13,202 nt of DNA from Phycisphaerae bacterium. Its GTDB lineage: Bacteria; Planctomycetota; Phycisphaerae; SM23-33. The notes below the pieces were generated by a model. It made no database searches. It saw only the letters and a list, made by a program, of their open reading frames with translations, and was not told the origin of the DNA. Position numbers and translations under genes: made by a program. Each line of letters starts with the position of its first letter. Within the stretch, counting starts at the first letter, position 1. Location: the NCBI GenBank assembly GCA_030754715.1, contig JASLZV010000016.1, positions 1-13,202 on the forward strand, read 5' to 3'. Positions 1 through 13,202 of the stretch are shown in pieces.

Positions 1-1337
1 TCGTGCAGTTCGAACACGCGGGCAGCGGCTGCGTCGCTGCGATGGAACCGCATGGATACGGTGGCCAACTTGCGGATCGGGTCGAACATGCCCATCAGGG
101 CGCCCATCCAGGCCATGAAGATTACCCCGTCCATCCGGTCGTTCAGCACCCAGTATCCAGCCACTCCGGCGGCTACCATGCCTGCGATGATGCCCATGGC
201 CTCAATGGACGGGGAGATGGCCGAGTCGATTCTGGCCATCCGCACCTGCTGCTTGAGTAGTCGGCGGTTGACGCGGAAGAAGCGTTTGCGTTCGGTTCCT
301 TCCATCGTGTAGGCCTTTACGACGCGGATGCCGGTGAGCGTTTCTTCCAGGATTCCCAGCATCGACGACCAGCCCTCCAGAGCGCGACGGGAGGTTTTTT
401 TTATGATTCGCCCCAACCTGGTAATCAGCCAGAATGCCGGCGGTCCGACGATCAGCGCCAGGAGCGTCAGTTCCCAGGAGCATATCATTGCTATGGTGAC
501 CGATGCGAGTGCCTTGGCCGGTTCGACCAGCGTTTTGCCGAACAGCGTCACTATTCCGCGGGCGATCTCGGCGGTGTCCTGGATGAATCGGCTCATTGTG
601 TCGCTGGTTCCGCGGGCGGCGAAGAACGTCACCGGCAGTCGCAGCGCCACGCTGTAGTTCTCGCAGCGCAGGTCCATGGTGGCGGCGAAGACGGCCGACT
701 GGACCAGGTACTCCTGCACGAATCGTAGCAGGTTGCGGAGCAGCGTGATGGCCACCATCACGGCCAACACCCACAGGAATACCGAGAACCGTTCGGGGCG
801 GGTAGTCGGTTCGGAGATGGCCCGGGCCATTTTGCCCAACAACTTTGGTCCGATGCCGGCCTCGGCCGGCGAAACGGTGACGGTGCGAACCTGCCGGTCC
901 TGGGGATTGAATACCCGCAGTGTGATGCGGCTGTCGGCGGGCGCCAGGGCGATGTAGCGGGCGACGTCGCGGGCGGGCATCAGGCGGCGGTCTTCCCAGC
1001 CCACGATCCAGTGGTGCTTTTTGATACCGGCCTCTTCCGCTGCGCCGCCTTTTCTTACGGCCACGACATCCAGGTACGTCGCTACCTGTTGGCCTTCGAC
1101 TATTGTGTAGGCCGAACCTTCACGCGAGACGATCCGCCCTTCGAGGCGGTCAGTGGTAAGTGAGTTCCACGCCCAGCCATGGAGGCCTTCGGCGCTGATG
1201 AGCACCTTCAACGCCGGTGCGAACATACCAAGGCCGCCGCCCCAGAGCACCGCGATCAGCAGCACGCAGACGACGGAGACGGCCAACCGCTTGCGGTAGG
1301 GCTTGAGGTACCGTAATGACCGGAAAAAGTCTTTCAT
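1..1337 (-). CDS. MsbA-type ABC exporter, membrane half with inserted PDZ-like domain (3' partial)
   Basis: 445 residues are visible; the rest, including the expected nucleotide-binding domain, lies beyond base 1. A basic N-terminus (MKDFFRSLRYLKPYRKRL) leads into a first membrane helix at about residues 19-40. TM2 follows only at about 184-205. The rest is a type I ABC exporter membrane region: helices around 275-305 and 378-397, with the EETLTGIRVVKAY stretch (about 331-343) typical of the coupling region in MsbA/LmrA-like half-transporters. Between TM1 and TM2, residues about 87-157 look like a PDZ fold: VRKGGAAEEAGI, then IVGWEDRRL, then a beta-rich ITLRVF end. Family knowledge says such exporters flip lipids or export hydrophobic substrates across the inner membrane; the substrate here is unknown. 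The start is the ATG at 1337, which places TM1 correctly. The Shine-Dalgarno is weak (GGGA). A promoter candidate lies just upstream, suggesting transcription independent of holB. Confident on family, moderate on the PDZ assignment. Confidence 0.9.
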   Translation of the reverse strand, partial: MKDFFRSLRYLKPYRKRLAVSVVCVLLIAVLWGGGLGMFAPALKVLISAEGLHGWAWNSLTTDRLEGRIVSREGSAYTIVEGQQVATYLDVVAVRKGGAAEEAGIKKHHWIVGWEDRRLMPARDVARYIALAPADSRITLRVFNPQDRQVRTVTVSPAEAGIGPKLLGKMARAISEPTTRPERFSVFLWVLAVMVAITLLRNLLRFVQEYLVQSAVFAATMDLRCENYSVALRLPVTFFAARGTSDTMSRFIQDTAEIARGIVTLFGKTLVEPAKALASVTIAMICSWELTLLALIVGPPAFWLITRLGRIIKKTSRRALEGWSSMLGILEETLTGIRVVKAYTMEGTERKRFFRVNRRLLKQQVRMARIDSAISPSIEAMGIIAGMVAAGVAGYWVLNDRMDGVIFMAWMGALMGMFDPIRKLATVSMRFHRSDAAAARVFELH

Positions 1338-1365
1338 ATGTGAAGTTCCCGCCTGGAAGTGCAGG

Positions 1366-1394
1366 ATTATGCAGCCAATCGGGCAAAAGGTCAA
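1366..1394 (-). promoter_or_regulatory. Sigma70-type promoter of the ABC exporter gene
   Basis: On the minus strand a -35 box TTGACC (1394-1389) is followed by exactly 17 bp and a -10 box CATAAT (1371-1366, 5 of 6 consensus). The predicted transcription start is near 1359, giving a leader of about 21 nt before the ATG at 1337. It lies in the 85-bp gap after the holB stop, so the exporter need not depend on holB read-through. The match is seen directly; activity is inferred. Confidence 0.55.
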
Positions 1395-6955: not shown

Positions 6956-7474
6956 TCAAGACTCCTGGGCGGTGAGTTTGTCGTGGACATCCTGGAAGAC
7001 CCTCCTGGCGGCCTCGTCGAACAGGATGGAATAGACGTCCTTCAGGCCGGTGCCCGCGGCGCGGTGGTTGTGGACTTCTTCGAGCATGATTTGGGCGCAC
7101 TCCTTAAGCCCGAAGCCGGCGATCCCCGTGCCGGTAGCCGGCAGAGCCAAGGTACGGAGGTGGTTTTCCTCGGCGAGTTTGAGCACGGCGCGGGTGGAAC
7201 TTTGCAAGGATTCAGTTGTCGTCGACCCTCCCAGTTGCATCGAGGCCTGGTGGATTACGTACTTTGCCGGCAGGTTTCCCGCGACGGTGATGGCGGCCTG
7301 CCCGATGGCGATGGGACCGTGTCGCGTGCATTGTTCCTGGATGGACGGTCCGCCGCCCCGTGCGATTGCGCCGGCCAGCCCGCCGCCGAGGATCAGGTCG
7401 TTGTTGGCTGCGTTTACGATGGCATCTAGGCGGCAGGTGGTGCTGTCGCCCTGGCGGATGTGAATGTTTGTCAT
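6956..7474 (-). CDS. Macro-domain protein (ADP-ribose binding or hydrolysing)
   Basis: 172 residues consisting of one macro domain. The signature NAAN is at 21-24 after LDAIV, followed by the glycine-rich GGGLAGAIARGGG loop (30-42), the GPIAIGQAAIT segment (53-63), KYVIHQAS (71-78) and the phosphate-binding LPATGTGIAGFG loop (111-122). The IHQAS form with a TGTGIAG loop resembles Af1521/Thermus-type stand-alone macro domains more than YmdB, which has IHxVGP. Family knowledge: these proteins bind ADP-ribose, and many hydrolyse O-acetyl-ADP-ribose or ADP-ribosyl esters in the cytoplasm. The catalytic mechanism here is inferred. The ATG at 7474 has AGGTGG (7487-7482) 7 nt upstream. It is the first gene of the minus-strand set and is coupled to the exported protein. 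No ADP-ribosyltransferase, antitoxin or NAD-metabolism gene adjoins it, so the substrate cannot be inferred from context. Confidence 0.9.
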   Translation of the reverse strand: MTNIHIRQGDSTTCRLDAIVNAANNDLILGGGLAGAIARGGGPSIQEQCTRHGPIAIGQAAITVAGNLPAKYVIHQASMQLGGSTTTESLQSSTRAVLKLAEENHLRTLALPATGTGIAGFGLKECAQIMLEEVHNHRAAGTGLKDVYSILFDEAARRVFQDVHDKLTAQES

Positions 7475-7650: not shown

Positions 7651-8937
7651 ATGAAAAGGGTCTGCGTGATCGACGTTGCCGGTTTGAGCCAGCGATTGCT
7701 TGACCGGCGGAAGGACTTGTGGATGCATTCGCTGGCCCATCCGGTCGGTGCGATGCGTCCGACGTTTCCGGCGGTGTGTCCCAGTGTGCAGGCGTCGATG
7801 ACGACGGGTCGGGCGCCGGGTGCGCATGGTGTGGTGGGTGGGGGTGTCTACCGCCGCCAGGCGCAAGAGGTAAGTTTTGCCGAGCGATCCAACACGCTGC
7901 TTAGCAAGAAGCGGTTCTGGCACGCGCGGGACCTTCCCGGGGCGCCGAAGGTGTCGTTGGTGTTCTGGTCGAACCCGCTGGCCGGCGGGGCGGACGTGGT
8001 TGTGGGCGCGGCCACTTACGGCTGTTACTGCGGGGGCGTCAGCCATCACCCGCTGGGACTCTATGAGGATCTGGCCGAGGCGCTGGGTCCGTTCGACGTT
8101 GATTCGCTGCATGGCCCGTCGGCCTCATTTGCGGCCGGCCAGTGGATTGGGCGGGCTGCCGAGGAGGTCTGGCGCAGCGGCCGGCCTGATTTGCAGTGGG
8201 TCTATCTGCCGGGGGTGGATTTCGAACTAGTCCGCGGAGGGCTGTCGGCCGGATCCGTCTTGGAGGCGATGATCGCCCTGGACGGCCTTGCCGAGCGCCT
8301 GGCTGCGGTGGTGAGGCAAGACGGCGGCGAAGTGGTGATTGTAAGCGACGGTGGATACGTGGACGTGTGCCGTGCGGCCAGTCCGAATATCCGCCTGCGC
8401 GAGGCCGGTTTGCTCACCGTGCGCCAGGGCGAACAAGGCGAAATGACGGACCTGCACAACTCCCGCGCGTTTGCCATGGTGGATCACCAGTTCGCTCATG
8501 TGTATTGCCTGGACCAGCGCGCCGAGGATGAGGCGGCTGAGGTCCTGGGTGCCCTGGACGGCGTGGATGCGGTGCTGAGTTGCGATGAAGCCTTCTGCGA
8601 GGGCCTGGGCCATGACCGCGCCGGCGAGCGGGTGCTGGTGGCCGATGCTGATGCGTGGTTTGCATATCGCTGGTGGCCGGATGGGCACGAGGCAGCGGCG
8701 GTGGCCGGTCGATTCGACGCCGAGGGCAAGTGCGGCTATGACCCGTGCGAGTTGCTGCCGGGTGGCGACGATGGAGGGTTCGATTGTGACGAGTCGCACG
8801 TTCGCGCCAGCCGCGGGCGGGTGGACATAGAACCCGCCGATGGCTGCGTTCTGGGGGCTACCTGCGACCTTGAGGCGGGGGGGGGGCTCTGCGTGACCGA
8901 CCTGCCGGGGGTGCTGCAGCGGTTGATGTTCGCCTGA
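7651..8937 (+). CDS. Alkaline-phosphatase-superfamily protein (type I phosphodiesterase/nucleotide pyrophosphatase-like) with altered active site
   Basis: 428 residues, without signal peptide, probably cytoplasmic. It matches bacterial phosphatase-superfamily proteins annotated as type I phosphodiesterase/nucleotide pyrophosphatase: metal-binding Asp8 in VCVIDVAG, the FPAV-x-VQA-TGRAPGAHGVVG block (39-63), WVYLPGVDFEL with Asp190, VIVSDGGYVDV (229-239), VDHQFAHVY (277-285), DAWFAYRWWPD (334-344) and CGYDPCELL (361-369). From memory of family consensus, three positions deviate: the nucleophile Thr aligns with Cys43, the LPH-LDY His with Gly188, and the late GSHG metal-ligand His with Arg388 (ASRG). 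Catalysis may be lost or changed. The protein is rich in cysteine (about 14), and ten consecutive G lie near its 3' end. The ATG at 7651 has only a weak GGTG upstream. Substrate unknown. It heads the plus-strand set. Family confident; activity doubtful. Confidence 0.8.
   Translation: MKRVCVIDVAGLSQRLLDRRKDLWMHSLAHPVGAMRPTFPAVCPSVQASMTTGRAPGAHGVVGGGVYRRQAQEVSFAERSNTLLSKKRFWHARDLPGAPKVSLVFWSNPLAGGADVVVGAATYGCYCGGVSHHPLGLYEDLAEALGPFDVDSLHGPSASFAAGQWIGRAAEEVWRSGRPDLQWVYLPGVDFELVRGGLSAGSVLEAMIALDGLAERLAAVVRQDGGEVVIVSDGGYVDVCRAASPNIRLREAGLLTVRQGEQGEMTDLHNSRAFAMVDHQFAHVYCLDQRAEDEAAEVLGALDGVDAVLSCDEAFCEGLGHDRAGERVLVADADAWFAYRWWPDGHEAAAVAGRFDAEGKCGYDPCELLPGGDDGGFDCDESHVRASRGRVDIEPADGCVLGATCDLEAGGGLCVTDLPGVLQRLMFA
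8877..8886 (+). repeat. Ten-guanine homopolymer inside the phosphatase-like gene
   Basis: Ten consecutive G encode part of Ala-Gly-Gly-Gly near residue 410, 16 codons before the stop. With ten G the frame continues to a plausible family-like end (TDLPGVLQRL). Losing one G gives a stop a few codons later; gaining one extends the frame to a stop just before 8982. This is a slippage-prone site and also a place where assembly errors are likely. Confidence 0.95.
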
Positions 8938-9573: not shown

Positions 9574-10719
9574 ATGGCCGATTGGGATTCGATGTTCGAC
9601 GGGCGGCTGAAAACAGCCGGGGGCCTGGATGAGTCGCAGTTGGACAAGGTTCCACCGCGTCGCGGGGTGGTGCTACTGAGCGGCCAGGCGCAGCCCATTG
9701 TCATGATTACCGCGGCCAACATGCGCGCCCGCGTCCGAAGCCGGCTCGACCGCCCGGCCGACGAGAAGCACAGGAAGGTGGTGAACCTTCGCGAGGTGAC
9801 CCGGCGGGTGTGGTGGAAGTTCGCCGCCAGTGCGTTCGAGGCGGACCTTTGCCTTGTGGAACTGGCTCGGGCGATCTGGCCGCAGACCTACGCTTCGATG
9901 GTGGGTTGGAAGCCGGCGTGGTTTGTACACGTCAATCCGGATGGGCAGTTTCCGCATTTCGTTCGCGGGCGAAAGTTTCCCCCGCCACCTGTGCGTTCTC
10001 TGGGCCCGTTTTTCCGCGGGCGCGACGCGGAGAGATTTATTTCAAGTCTCCAGGACACCTTCGACCTGTGCCGTGATTATCAAAGCCTTCGCCGCAGCCC
10101 CAACGCCCATCGGTGTTCGTATGCCCAGATGGGACGATGCCTGTGCCCCTGCGACGGTACGATCTCCATGGACGAATATGTCGCGGCGGTGGGGCGGGCG
10201 GCGGATTTCGCCGCGGGGAACCGCCGGGGCCTGGCGGAGCAGTTGGGGCGGCGGATGCAGGCGGCGTCCGATCGCCTGGACTTTGAGCGGGCCGCCGGCC
10301 TGAAGGCCCGGCTGCGGCGGATGACGGATTTTGACCGCCCGGTCTACGCACACGTGCGGCCGGTGGAGGAATTCTGCTTCCTGGTGATCCAGCGTGGGCG
10401 TGGGCGACGCCAGGTGCGGGTGTTCCTGTGCGATCGCGGCGCGATCGGCGCGGTGGCTGTGCTGAAGTATCCGCCGCCGCCGGCGGATTTGCGGGCCGTG
10501 CTGGACCAAATAGCGTTGTACGTATCGTCCTGTCCGGCCCAGGACGAGGCGGCAACCCTTCGGATGGGCCTGGTGTCCAACTATCTTTTCAGCGGGAAAG
10601 CGAGACGGGGCCTGATCGTCAGGTGGACTGAGGACCTGGACGGCGGAGAGTTGGGCGAACGGATCGCCGCGGCTGGGAATGTGCTGGGGCTCGGTGGGTC
10701 TGCTGGTGGTGGCCGATGA
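9574..10719 (+). CDS. UvrC N-terminal-half homologue with degenerate GIY-YIG domain
   Basis: 381 residues. Domain order follows the first half of UvrC: a GIY-YIG-like region (about 28-135), a four-cysteine cluster, a UVR motif, then a divergent tail. In the nuclease region GIY reads GVV (31-33) and the YIG strand reads PIVMI (41-45), so both signature tyrosines are missing, while an Arg-rich helix (RARVRSRL, 51-58) and a Glu at the catalytic position (Glu89 in AFEAD) remain. C166, C181, C189 and C193 match the UvrC Fe-S cluster pattern, in CSYAQMGRC then PCDG. The UVR helix pair (about 219-250, RLDFERAAGLKARL) would bind UvrB or DNA. The RNase H-like nuclease and HhH domains of full UvrC are absent. 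It is probably not a complete excinuclease; a repair accessory or structural role is inferred. GGGGTGAG lies 5 nt before the ATG. Confidence 0.82.
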   Translation: MADWDSMFDGRLKTAGGLDESQLDKVPPRRGVVLLSGQAQPIVMITAANMRARVRSRLDRPADEKHRKVVNLREVTRRVWWKFAASAFEADLCLVELARAIWPQTYASMVGWKPAWFVHVNPDGQFPHFVRGRKFPPPPVRSLGPFFRGRDAERFISSLQDTFDLCRDYQSLRRSPNAHRCSYAQMGRCLCPCDGTISMDEYVAAVGRAADFAAGNRRGLAEQLGRRMQAASDRLDFERAAGLKARLRRMTDFDRPVYAHVRPVEEFCFLVIQRGRGRRQVRVFLCDRGAIGAVAVLKYPPPPADLRAVLDQIALYVSSCPAQDEAATLRMGLVSNYLFSGKARRGLIVRWTEDLDGGELGERIAAAGNVLGLGGSAGGGR

Positions 10720-10848
10720 ATTCGTATTCGTGATTTGATCCGATTGGGGGCAACTCCGCGTTCGCGTGCGTTGCCATGGCGGGATCAGGCGTTCCGGCAG
10801 CGTGTGGATTTGGTGTGGGAAATGCAGGATAATGAGCCCGCTTGCGAC

Positions 10849-10854
10849 AGGAGG
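10849..10854 (+). promoter_or_regulatory. Ribosome binding site selecting the GTG start of the AsmA-like gene
   Basis: A perfect AGGAGG sits 6 nt before the GTG at 10861. An in-frame ATG exists at 10822, but it has poorer spacing to GTGGGA. A GATAAT -10-like box (10828-10833, weak -35) would start transcription downstream of that ATG. Both points favour GTG. Confidence 0.75.
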
Positions 10855-10860
10855 CAGCCG

Positions 10861-13202
10861 GTGCGCGGAATTGCCTGGATCATACGTTCGATACGTGTTT
10901 GGTTTCCCCGCCGGCCGCGGCGGTACTGGCGGTACGTTTCACCGCAGCGCCGCGGGGCGGCTGTGGTGATTCTCGCGCTGCTGCTTACGGGTGTTTACGG
11001 TTTCTGGTATCTCACCAACGACGCCCGCATCCGCCGCCAGGCCAGGCGGTACCTCCAGCGGATCACTGGGGCGCACGTAAGCATCGAGAGAGCGGATTTC
11101 CGCCTGTTCGGCCCCATCAGGCTGCACGGCGTACGGGTGGCAATTCCCGGCGAGCGGATGCGTGAATCGTTCTTCGTCGCCAAGTTGCTGGTTTTGCGAC
11201 ATCGCCCATGGTCGGTGTTCATTACGGGGCGTGTGCATCCCACAGAGATCATCTGCCAAGAGCCCACGGTCAAGATAGAACATGACCAGGATATCGACCG
11301 CTACAATTTCCAGCGGCTTTTCGCCGGGCGGTTGCCCACCTGGAGCCCGGGCGGCGGCGTGCTGCCTCCGATCCGCGTACTCCGCTGCCGTCACAGACCT
11401 GTGGAGATCGTAGCTGGAGTGCGTTTGCCGGGCGAAACCATGGTGTGGAACATTGTGATGGTTCCGAAGGGCAGCACCTACCGGGTGCGAGTTGAGGAGG
11501 ATCGCCGTGACGGCAAGATCCCCACGAAGGTTCGGGCCACGATCGACCTGACCACCGGTGGGATCACGGACTACACGGTTTCGGGAACGGTCCCCGGCGT
11601 GGCGCGAGCCCTGCCGCGCAAGTGGCGAATGTGGCGTGAGACGTACAAGATCACCGGCGAGGTGCGCCTCAAGGGGCGCGGGGGCGTACTGGCCAGCGGC
11701 GAGCCCCTGGAACTGAAACTATGGGACGTTGCCTTGGAACTTCCCAAGGAGCAGGGCGCGCTGAAGCTTACGAACGTCCGGGGGACGCTTGCCTTCACCT
11801 TCGGCCACGACTCGGCGGTGGGCGACGGCCAAAAGGGCGCGGTGGAACTGCGGAACATCACCGGTCGGGTGGTCCAGGCCGGCGGAGCTAAGTTTGAACT
11901 CTCGGGGAAGTACCACGGTTATGCTCCGAGCGACCCGTTTGACGTGAAGGTGAAGATTGAGAAGATGGCCGTACCGTTCGGCAGCGATCATCCCGGTCTG
12001 TCCGGGTTCCTGGATATTATCCATCGGTGGTATCGTCCGGACGGCAAGGCGGATGTGGCCATCAAATTCCTTAGGGGTCCGGACAGCCCCTATGTTACGA
12101 TGATCGGGACGATCCATCCTCGCGGCATGTCGGCCACCTACAAGTATCTTCCCTACCGCCTTGACAACCTGTCCGGAGCAATCAGGTTCACCAACAGCCA
12201 CTTTACCGCCAAAGACATCAAGGGCACCAGAGACGGCGGAAGGTTCACCATAAACGCGGAGGTCGCCCTGAAGCCTGACGGCGATCCGAGTCATTACAAC
12301 GTTGTGGTGAAGGCGGATTCGGCCTTGCTGGACGACGCGTTTCGCGATGCGCTGCCGGCGGAGGCCAGGGAAGCATGGGGGCAACTGAATCCTCGCGGCA
12401 GGGTGTCGGCCCGCGTCGTGGTGAGTCGTAAGGCGGACGAGGAAAGCGACCGGGTCAGGATTGACGTGATTGCCGAAGGCGATACTCAGGTGACCTACGC
12501 CGACGTGCCGTATCCCCTTCACAGCATTCGTGGTACAGCCCACATTGAGGGTGATCGCTGGTGGGTTCCTCACGACCAGCCGTTGGTTGCCAGGGGTCGC
12601 GGGAGGATGAAATGCGAGATCTACGGGGAGATCCGCTCACCTGGGACCGCCAAGGCCAGGGCCCATGTGACTATCAAGGCCAAGGACCTGCCGCTGGACG
12701 AGGCGCTGGCGGCTGCGCTGCCCCGGGAGGCTGGAGAGGTGCTGGAGGCCTTGGGCCCCACCGGTGCGTCCCGGCGGGTATCGGTGGAGGTACGCCAGAG
12801 GCTCGGGGAGGAACTGACATACGCCATCAAGGCCCGGCTCGAAGGCGCCGGCATCAAGTACAAGGGATTCCCCTACGCCGTTACGGATATGGTGGGCAAC
12901 GTTTTCATCGAGCCGGGTGTGGTTCGAATCGAGGAGATGTCGGGGCGGCACGGCAAGACCCCGGTCAGAGTTACCGGCCGCATCCTCATGGGCCGGAACG
13001 GAGTCGGATTGGACCTGGGCATCCACGGCACGCGCGTTGTGTTGGACAGGGAGTTTTACGAGGTTCTGTGGCCGGAGTTGAAGTTGCTCTGGGACACCTT
13101 GCGTCCGCGCGGCATGGCCGACATACACATGCGACTTCGGAGCAAACCGGGCGAGCGTGAGGGACAACTCGACTACCGAATGGAGATACTCCCCCAGGGA
13201 AT
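10861..13202 (+). CDS. AsmA-like membrane-anchored protein with tandem repeats of about 118 residues (3' partial)
   Basis: 780 residues are visible and the frame is open at the window end. A basic N-terminus (1-31) precedes one membrane helix (about 32-52). Next comes the AsmA-type N-terminal pattern: ITGAHVSIERADFRLFGPI (68-86) followed by LHGVRV. The remainder is beta-rich and predicted outside the inner membrane. From about residue 246 it is built of repeats. Each has a helix-like segment ending in a Pro-x-Gly (RPDG 392-395, NPRG 510-513, GPTG 632-635, RPRG 748-751), then beta strands, then a PY dipeptide (431, 550, 671) and a Gly eight residues later (439, 558, 679). AsmA/TamB/YhdP relatives carry phospholipids between membranes; that role is inferred here. 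Start: see the ribosome binding site at 10849. The 141-bp gap before the gene holds no other ORF worth calling. Family level confident, exact subfamily not. Confidence 0.83.
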   Translation, partial: MRGIAWIIRSIRVWFPRRPRRYWRYVSPQRRGAAVVILALLLTGVYGFWYLTNDARIRRQARRYLQRITGAHVSIERADFRLFGPIRLHGVRVAIPGERMRESFFVAKLLVLRHRPWSVFITGRVHPTEIICQEPTVKIEHDQDIDRYNFQRLFAGRLPTWSPGGGVLPPIRVLRCRHRPVEIVAGVRLPGETMVWNIVMVPKGSTYRVRVEEDRRDGKIPTKVRATIDLTTGGITDYTVSGTVPGVARALPRKWRMWRETYKITGEVRLKGRGGVLASGEPLELKLWDVALELPKEQGALKLTNVRGTLAFTFGHDSAVGDGQKGAVELRNITGRVVQAGGAKFELSGKYHGYAPSDPFDVKVKIEKMAVPFGSDHPGLSGFLDIIHRWYRPDGKADVAIKFLRGPDSPYVTMIGTIHPRGMSATYKYLPYRLDNLSGAIRFTNSHFTAKDIKGTRDGGRFTINAEVALKPDGDPSHYNVVVKADSALLDDAFRDALPAEAREAWGQLNPRGRVSARVVVSRKADEESDRVRIDVIAEGDTQVTYADVPYPLHSIRGTAHIEGDRWWVPHDQPLVARGRGRMKCEIYGEIRSPGTAKARAHVTIKAKDLPLDEALAAALPREAGEVLEALGPTGASRRVSVEVRQRLGEELTYAIKARLEGAGIKYKGFPYAVTDMVGNVFIEPGVVRIEEMSGRHGKTPVRVTGRILMGRNGVGLDLGIHGTRVVLDREFYEVLWPELKLLWDTLRPRGMADIHMRLRSKPGEREGQLDYRMEILPQG

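Follow-up and report, generated by a model that had tools for sequence, protein, structure and literature searches.

Does the gene that runs off the end of a planctomycete contig encode a protein built from tandem copies of one module, and could those copies form a lipid-conducting β-groove between two membranes? The contig (JASLZV010000016.1, 13,202 nucleotides, from the Phycisphaerae bacterium assembly GCA_030754715.1, a genome 69% complete) was analyzed whole and is referred to here as the window. Its last open frame (window:10735-13200:+; 822 codons, protein P0001) is open at the contig end. A protein database search supplied a full-length relative of 1158 residues, P0002, 96% identical to the window protein. 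The tandem repeats are real, and we assign a probability of roughly three in four to the encoded protein, hereafter the bridge protein, being an inner-membrane-anchored, periplasm-spanning AsmA-like lipid bridge that works in the manner of the eukaryotic repeating β-groove (RBG) bridges. The original prediction counted residues from the GTG at 10861, so that its residue n is residue n + 42 of the open frame used here; relatives P0004 and P0005 begin 19 residues upstream of the motif RRYWR, and this GTG is equally distant from it.

Once shifted by 42, the predicted landmarks all lie where they were reported: Pro-x-Gly at residues 435, 553, 675, and 791 (spacing 118, 122, and 116) and PY dipeptides at 473, 592, and 713 (spacing 119 and 121). 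They are a selection, the frame containing ten Pro-x-Gly and four PY in total. The judgment that chance was unlikely nevertheless holds, as a Pro-x-Gly series of four with a PY series of three, the period being free to lie anywhere between 60 and 208, arose in 0 of 5000 shuffled sequences. Self-comparison had been named beforehand as the test that could refute the repeat; the best off-diagonal gapped local self-alignment of P0001 scores 102, against a mean of 41.4 (standard deviation 5.2) and a maximum of 58 among 200 shuffles. On both tests, landmarks arising by chance are rejected. The corresponding self-alignment scores are 203 for P0002 and 347 for P0009. Ungapped autocorrelation is weak taken alone, with top lags of 116 (2.8 standard deviations) and 119 (2.6) next to lag 53 at 2.5 in P0001, and with lag 119 at 2.1 in P0002, where lag 159 is higher.

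Homology among the copies was assessed by dividing a 32-row family alignment into ten pieces, comprising modules a–f, two N-terminal pieces, and two C-terminal pieces. All 15 profile–profile pairs among a–f reached 91.6–99.8% probability, while the remaining 30 pairs reached at most 10.2%; identity within the pairs among b–e is 12–27%. A first module profile, built from 108 modules in 23 rows, recovers all six copies of P0002 and five in the window protein, the last incomplete; on 1360 shuffles its best score was 5.9 bits, and two shuffled matches passed the loose E-value. The longest frames of 4 of 19 loci (L016, L027, L028, and L032) contain no module; the high GC content of the DNA probably led to the wrong frame being taken. 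The more diverged early copy, placed by the original prediction near its residue 246 with a Gly at 308, is module a (residues 283–412), whose Gly 350 corresponds to the invariant G275 of P0002. The protein was also expected to continue beyond the window, and in P0002 the series extends with a PY at 756 and a Pro-x-Gly at 832, giving six modules.

The predicted structure contains a series of similar modules, as had been anticipated. In an AlphaFold model of P0002 computed from the 32 rows (mean predicted local distance difference test score, pLDDT, 83.1; predicted template modeling score, pTM, 0.50), all six modules comprise six strands, which follow a pair of short helices or, in module b, a single longer one; in module c, strand 4 is split. 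The Pro-x-Gly position falls at the junction of helices and strand 1, the PY position in the turn into strand 3 or at its start, and the conserved Gly within strand 3. Folded with 10 relatives, the window's own modules b–d (pLDDT 86.7, pTM 0.80) retain the order of these elements, with strand 2 of module b also broken. Across 56 strands of P0002 (the broken strand of c joined and three short strands excluded), the strands are amphipathic on average, with a face difference of 1.96 versus 1.33 when permuted and 0 of 500 permutations as high; 12 of the 56 reach p < 0.05 individually. Foldseek returned the LPD-3 (BLTP1) complex as the best match to the full model, and the N-terminal part combines a probable transmembrane helix with a region like the N-terminal domains of Vps13 and Atg2, at middling Z. 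These matches, together with the tandem six-strand modules separated by helices, support the suggested RBG type. A PDB sequence search gave one chance match (E 0.18).

The AsmA-like assignment is likewise supported. The protein has an N-terminal helix, putatively membrane-inserted, followed by β-rich repeats, and matches YhdP (PF13116) and DUF748 (PF05359) weakly, below the cut-offs. Because the curated cut-offs for YhdP are not reached (PF13116, 32.2 bits for P0001 and 35.4 for P0002 versus 46 required by Pfam; the NCBIfam model TIGR02099, 16.9 for the window part versus 519 required), the bridge protein is not filed as YhdP; we interpret it as a periplasmic lipid bridge of the AsmA-like kind with kinship to YhdP. 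For the AsmA-type C-terminal region (PF05170), sub-threshold matches lie in the C-terminal part of P0010 and P0016 and none was reported for P0002, and no TamB domain (PF04357) appeared in P0002 among matches up to E 0.1. The protein shares tandem homologous β-strand modules with the RBG bridges. In VPS13 a module usually comprises five strands plus a loop, with variants in other members; as six strands are predicted here, the protein is classed as functioning in the RBG manner.

E. coli YhdP resembles the bridge protein in size and in its hydrophobic N-terminus, and matches the module profile at 636–749 (20.5 bits) and 332–400 (9.5 bits). The first profile gives one match, of 10 bits, and a second (181 modules), to which the two matches just named belong, 42 bits over the whole sequence versus 6.1 in 300 shuffles. 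Unlike P0002, YhdP has no significant repeat in a single-sequence comparison (score 55; mean 45.5 and maximum 66 in 60 shuffles), a judgment made on one sequence, the best 120 of 1712 YhdP protein matches all being 98–100% identical. Its ends, unlike those of Planctomycetota relatives, are not found by profiles of the two caps described below. The simplest reading is that YhdP carries this module too, at greater sequence divergence. According to PMC8593681, E. coli AsmA-like proteins have periplasmic parts of about 425 to 1,125 residues, with several AsmA domains predicted. With VPS13, ATG2, and BLTP1 the bridge protein shares a putative chorein-N-like start and tandem candidate groove modules, and with VPS13 a set of central copies that are most alike (here c, d, and e); unlike the three it is bacterial and has one putative N-terminal membrane helix, and unlike VPS13 it has six predicted strands plus helices in each module of about 118 residues. 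Most VPS13 domains have five strands, and variant strand numbers occur in the RBG member Tweek, as stated in PMC7613979.

Module number was then compared across 20 relatives from other Planctomycetota genomes, picked for spread of frame lengths, in which the second profile detects 3 to 8 modules per protein. Three proteins of 775–784 residues have three modules, with 204–208 residues before and 199–204 after them, and three of 1369–1392 residues have eight, with 202–222 before and 176–205 after. The three-module forms (L054, L055, and L056) all come from one taxonomic family. Profiles of the N-terminal and C-terminal caps, built from the 32-row alignment, both match 19 of the 20 relatives at 8 bits or more, compared with 4.8 and 2.1 bits reached by 685 shuffles. 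In 40 of 44 proteins each detected module corresponds to an increase of 121 residues in the cap-to-cap distance (r 0.92, Spearman 0.86), with cap ends extrapolated from partial matches and relatives that are statistically non-independent; the four excluded, lacking a cap match of 8 bits, are E. coli YhdP, L044, P0019, and P0022. The 19 newly fetched proteins alone give 136 ± 10 residues per module (r 0.96), three of their genomes (G071, G107, and G167) having supplied modules to the second profile. The cap profiles drew on most of the remaining 21 proteins. Total length follows module number more weakly than cap-to-cap distance (Spearman 0.55, p 0.012, 20 proteins), partly because the frames of L038, L039, L043, and L044 extend far upstream, in what looks like read-through of GC-rich frames. 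In another relative, L042, a glycosyltransferase-like region (PMT_2, 48.5 bits; L042:7186-8505, minus strand) precedes the AsmA-like frame with no stop between, reflecting either a fusion or two genes sharing one open frame. Judged by these profiles, Planctomycetota relatives retain both caps and vary the number of modules between them. The kind of protein is known. Literature searches covering repeats and module number in AsmA-like proteins, and such proteins in Planctomycetota, listed no title or abstract opening that describes a regular, sequence-readable module with conserved caps and variable count.

The modules appear to be old. A tree built on 59 modules of 12 proteins, with few columns and unsettled bootstrap, groups them by position and not by species: a, c, and d each fall on one side of a branch at 100/98–99, and c, d, and e together at 98/95. 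Neither b nor e is separated in this way; they require 2 and 3 changes, respectively. Since modules group by position, the duplications most likely predate the family. This positional grouping across species, with the 12–27% identity among b–e, also rejects a recent duplication or an assembly artifact. The middle modules are the most alike, in parallel with the growth by central duplication inferred for VPS13 by Levine 2022 (PMC7613979). A gap of about 43 residues removes helix 2 together with the first two strands of module c in seven relatives (P0003–P0006, P0008, L002, and L003); as the number of strands lost is even, the sheet could stay in register.

A search for homologs in other planctomycetes had been proposed as a check. 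A contig scan with the single protein as query found no relative, and an alignment-based scan found 12 loci, all from Phycisphaerae, Phycisphaerales, or Planctomycetota metagenome-assembled genomes. Of 294 genomes sampled from the phylum, 217 contain a match to the family profile, including all 22 listed genomes of the same class, the bacterium's own among them; 57 non-matching genomes are unlisted and, to judge from the list order, include none from this class. A TamB match (PF04357) was detected in 67 of the 294 genomes, in none of the 22 listed same-class genomes, and nowhere in the bacterium's own genome at its 69% completeness. LptD was not found there either, which at that completeness carries little weight; an Omp85 protein and one MlaD domain were above cut-off.

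As we envisage it, the transmembrane helix and chorein-like N-terminal cap would take up phospholipid at the inner membrane, and the six tandem modules, each of helices and six antiparallel strands, would form one long, curved, continuous sheet with a hydrophobic inner face. The conserved C-terminal cap would extend to the outer membrane, and lipid tails would slide in the groove, head groups toward water, from the inner to the outer membrane.

Could the groove instead hold protein? A periplasmic protein that scaffolds outer-membrane proteins or assists their assembly, binding the hydrophobic strands of its clients and not lipids, is an unlikely competitor. TamB, a β-taco groove protein that works with TamA, is said to act in outer-membrane protein assembly. 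Its superfamily is related, it is among the fold matches of low root-mean-square deviation (5.2 Å over 213 residues with the three-module model, in keeping with the proposed groove), and the bacterium has its own Omp85. The three-module model is matched about equally well by OspA, a lipoprotein whose sheet is single-layered. The TamB domain itself, however, went undetected in the bacterium's own genome, in the 22 listed same-class genomes, and in P0002, and E. coli genetics link YhdP to phospholipids (PMC11226057), a study that also reports photo-cross-linking along the YhdP groove with detection of phosphate or lipid.

Two further readings keep the sheet but dispense with lipid transfer between membranes, and both seem to us decidedly improbable. 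The amphipathic sheet might, like ApoB100, lie on the surface of a membrane or of lipid, and ApoB100 chains are among the best fold matches; yet their deviation is at least 9.1 Å in the N-terminal and three-module comparisons, and the protein has features of a bridge in its two conserved caps and in the N-terminal helix with its putative chorein-like region. Alternatively, the modules might be a structural spacer that sets envelope width and passes no lipid, which would suit a varying module number between constant caps but not the average amphipathicity of the strands, nor the lipid role of the nearest studied relatives, E. coli proteins implicated in phospholipid transport (PMC8593681, PMC8912898, and PMC11226057). 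We favor the lipid bridge.

Coordinates are collected in Table 1. Upstream in the window lie a UvrC-like and a FabZ-like gene; among relatives, FabZ recurs in L007 and weak UVR motifs occur in upstream genes of L006 and L008, and a nucleoside phosphorylase gene lies downstream of the bridge gene in 5 of 5 relatives tested. This neighborhood is uninformative on the function of the bridge protein.

Table 1. Bridge gene, its parts, and other genes of the window
Feature	Position	Strand	Basis or remark
AsmA-like bridge protein coding sequence, 3' end absent (contig end)	10861..13202	+	GTG start 10861; open frame 10735-13200; RRYWR distance
N-terminal transmembrane helix (putative) after Arg-rich stretch	10963..11013	+	AlphaFold2 helix of P0002 (2-18) and sequence
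N-terminal cap: putative transmembrane helix and candidate chorein-N-like strands	10960..11574	+	
Module a (diverged copy)	11581..11970	+	Profile pairs vs b-f, 91.6-98.2%
Module b	11971..12324	+	Profile pairs vs c-f, 94.9-99.6%; model of window's own modules
Module c, partly absent in some relatives	12325..12690	+	Profile pairs; model of window's own modules
Module d	12691..13038	+	Profile pairs; model of window's own modules
Module e, first 54 residues	13039..13200	+	Remainder of e, f, and C-terminal cap beyond contig, visible in P0002
UvrC-like protein, 381 residues, UVR motif	9574..10719	+	Directly upstream of bridge gene
Type I phosphodiesterase/nucleotide pyrophosphatase	7651..8937	+	
Macro domain protein	6956..7474	-	
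PDZ-like part, then ABC transporter membrane region	3..1394	-	PDZ-like part below cut-off; unusual order

This family may speak to how bacterial lipid bridges originated and to what determines their length. Consecutive strands in a β-sheet are spaced by 0.48 nm. With that value and the 56 strands counted in P0002, we estimate from the model a bridge of roughly 18 nm with three modules, 27 nm with six, and 33 nm with eight. For comparison, E. coli K-12 strains with lengthened Lpp have a periplasm widened by 3–4 nm (PMC8824477). Tentatively, the protein could act as a ruler in Planctomycetota, with fixed membrane caps enclosing interchangeable groove modules, three to about eight in number and ~118 residues each, that are gained or lost as units or half units, their number matching each lineage's membrane-to-membrane distance; in Phycisphaerae, with no TamB detected, it may be the main outward route for phospholipid. 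A tandem origin that is invisible to single-sequence tests in E. coli YhdP is readable in Planctomycetota sequences, and resembles the history of domain duplication that has been inferred for VPS13 in eukaryotes. With three to eight modules between related caps, this natural series would allow tests of whether bridge length follows envelope width and of whether modules can be inserted or taken out.
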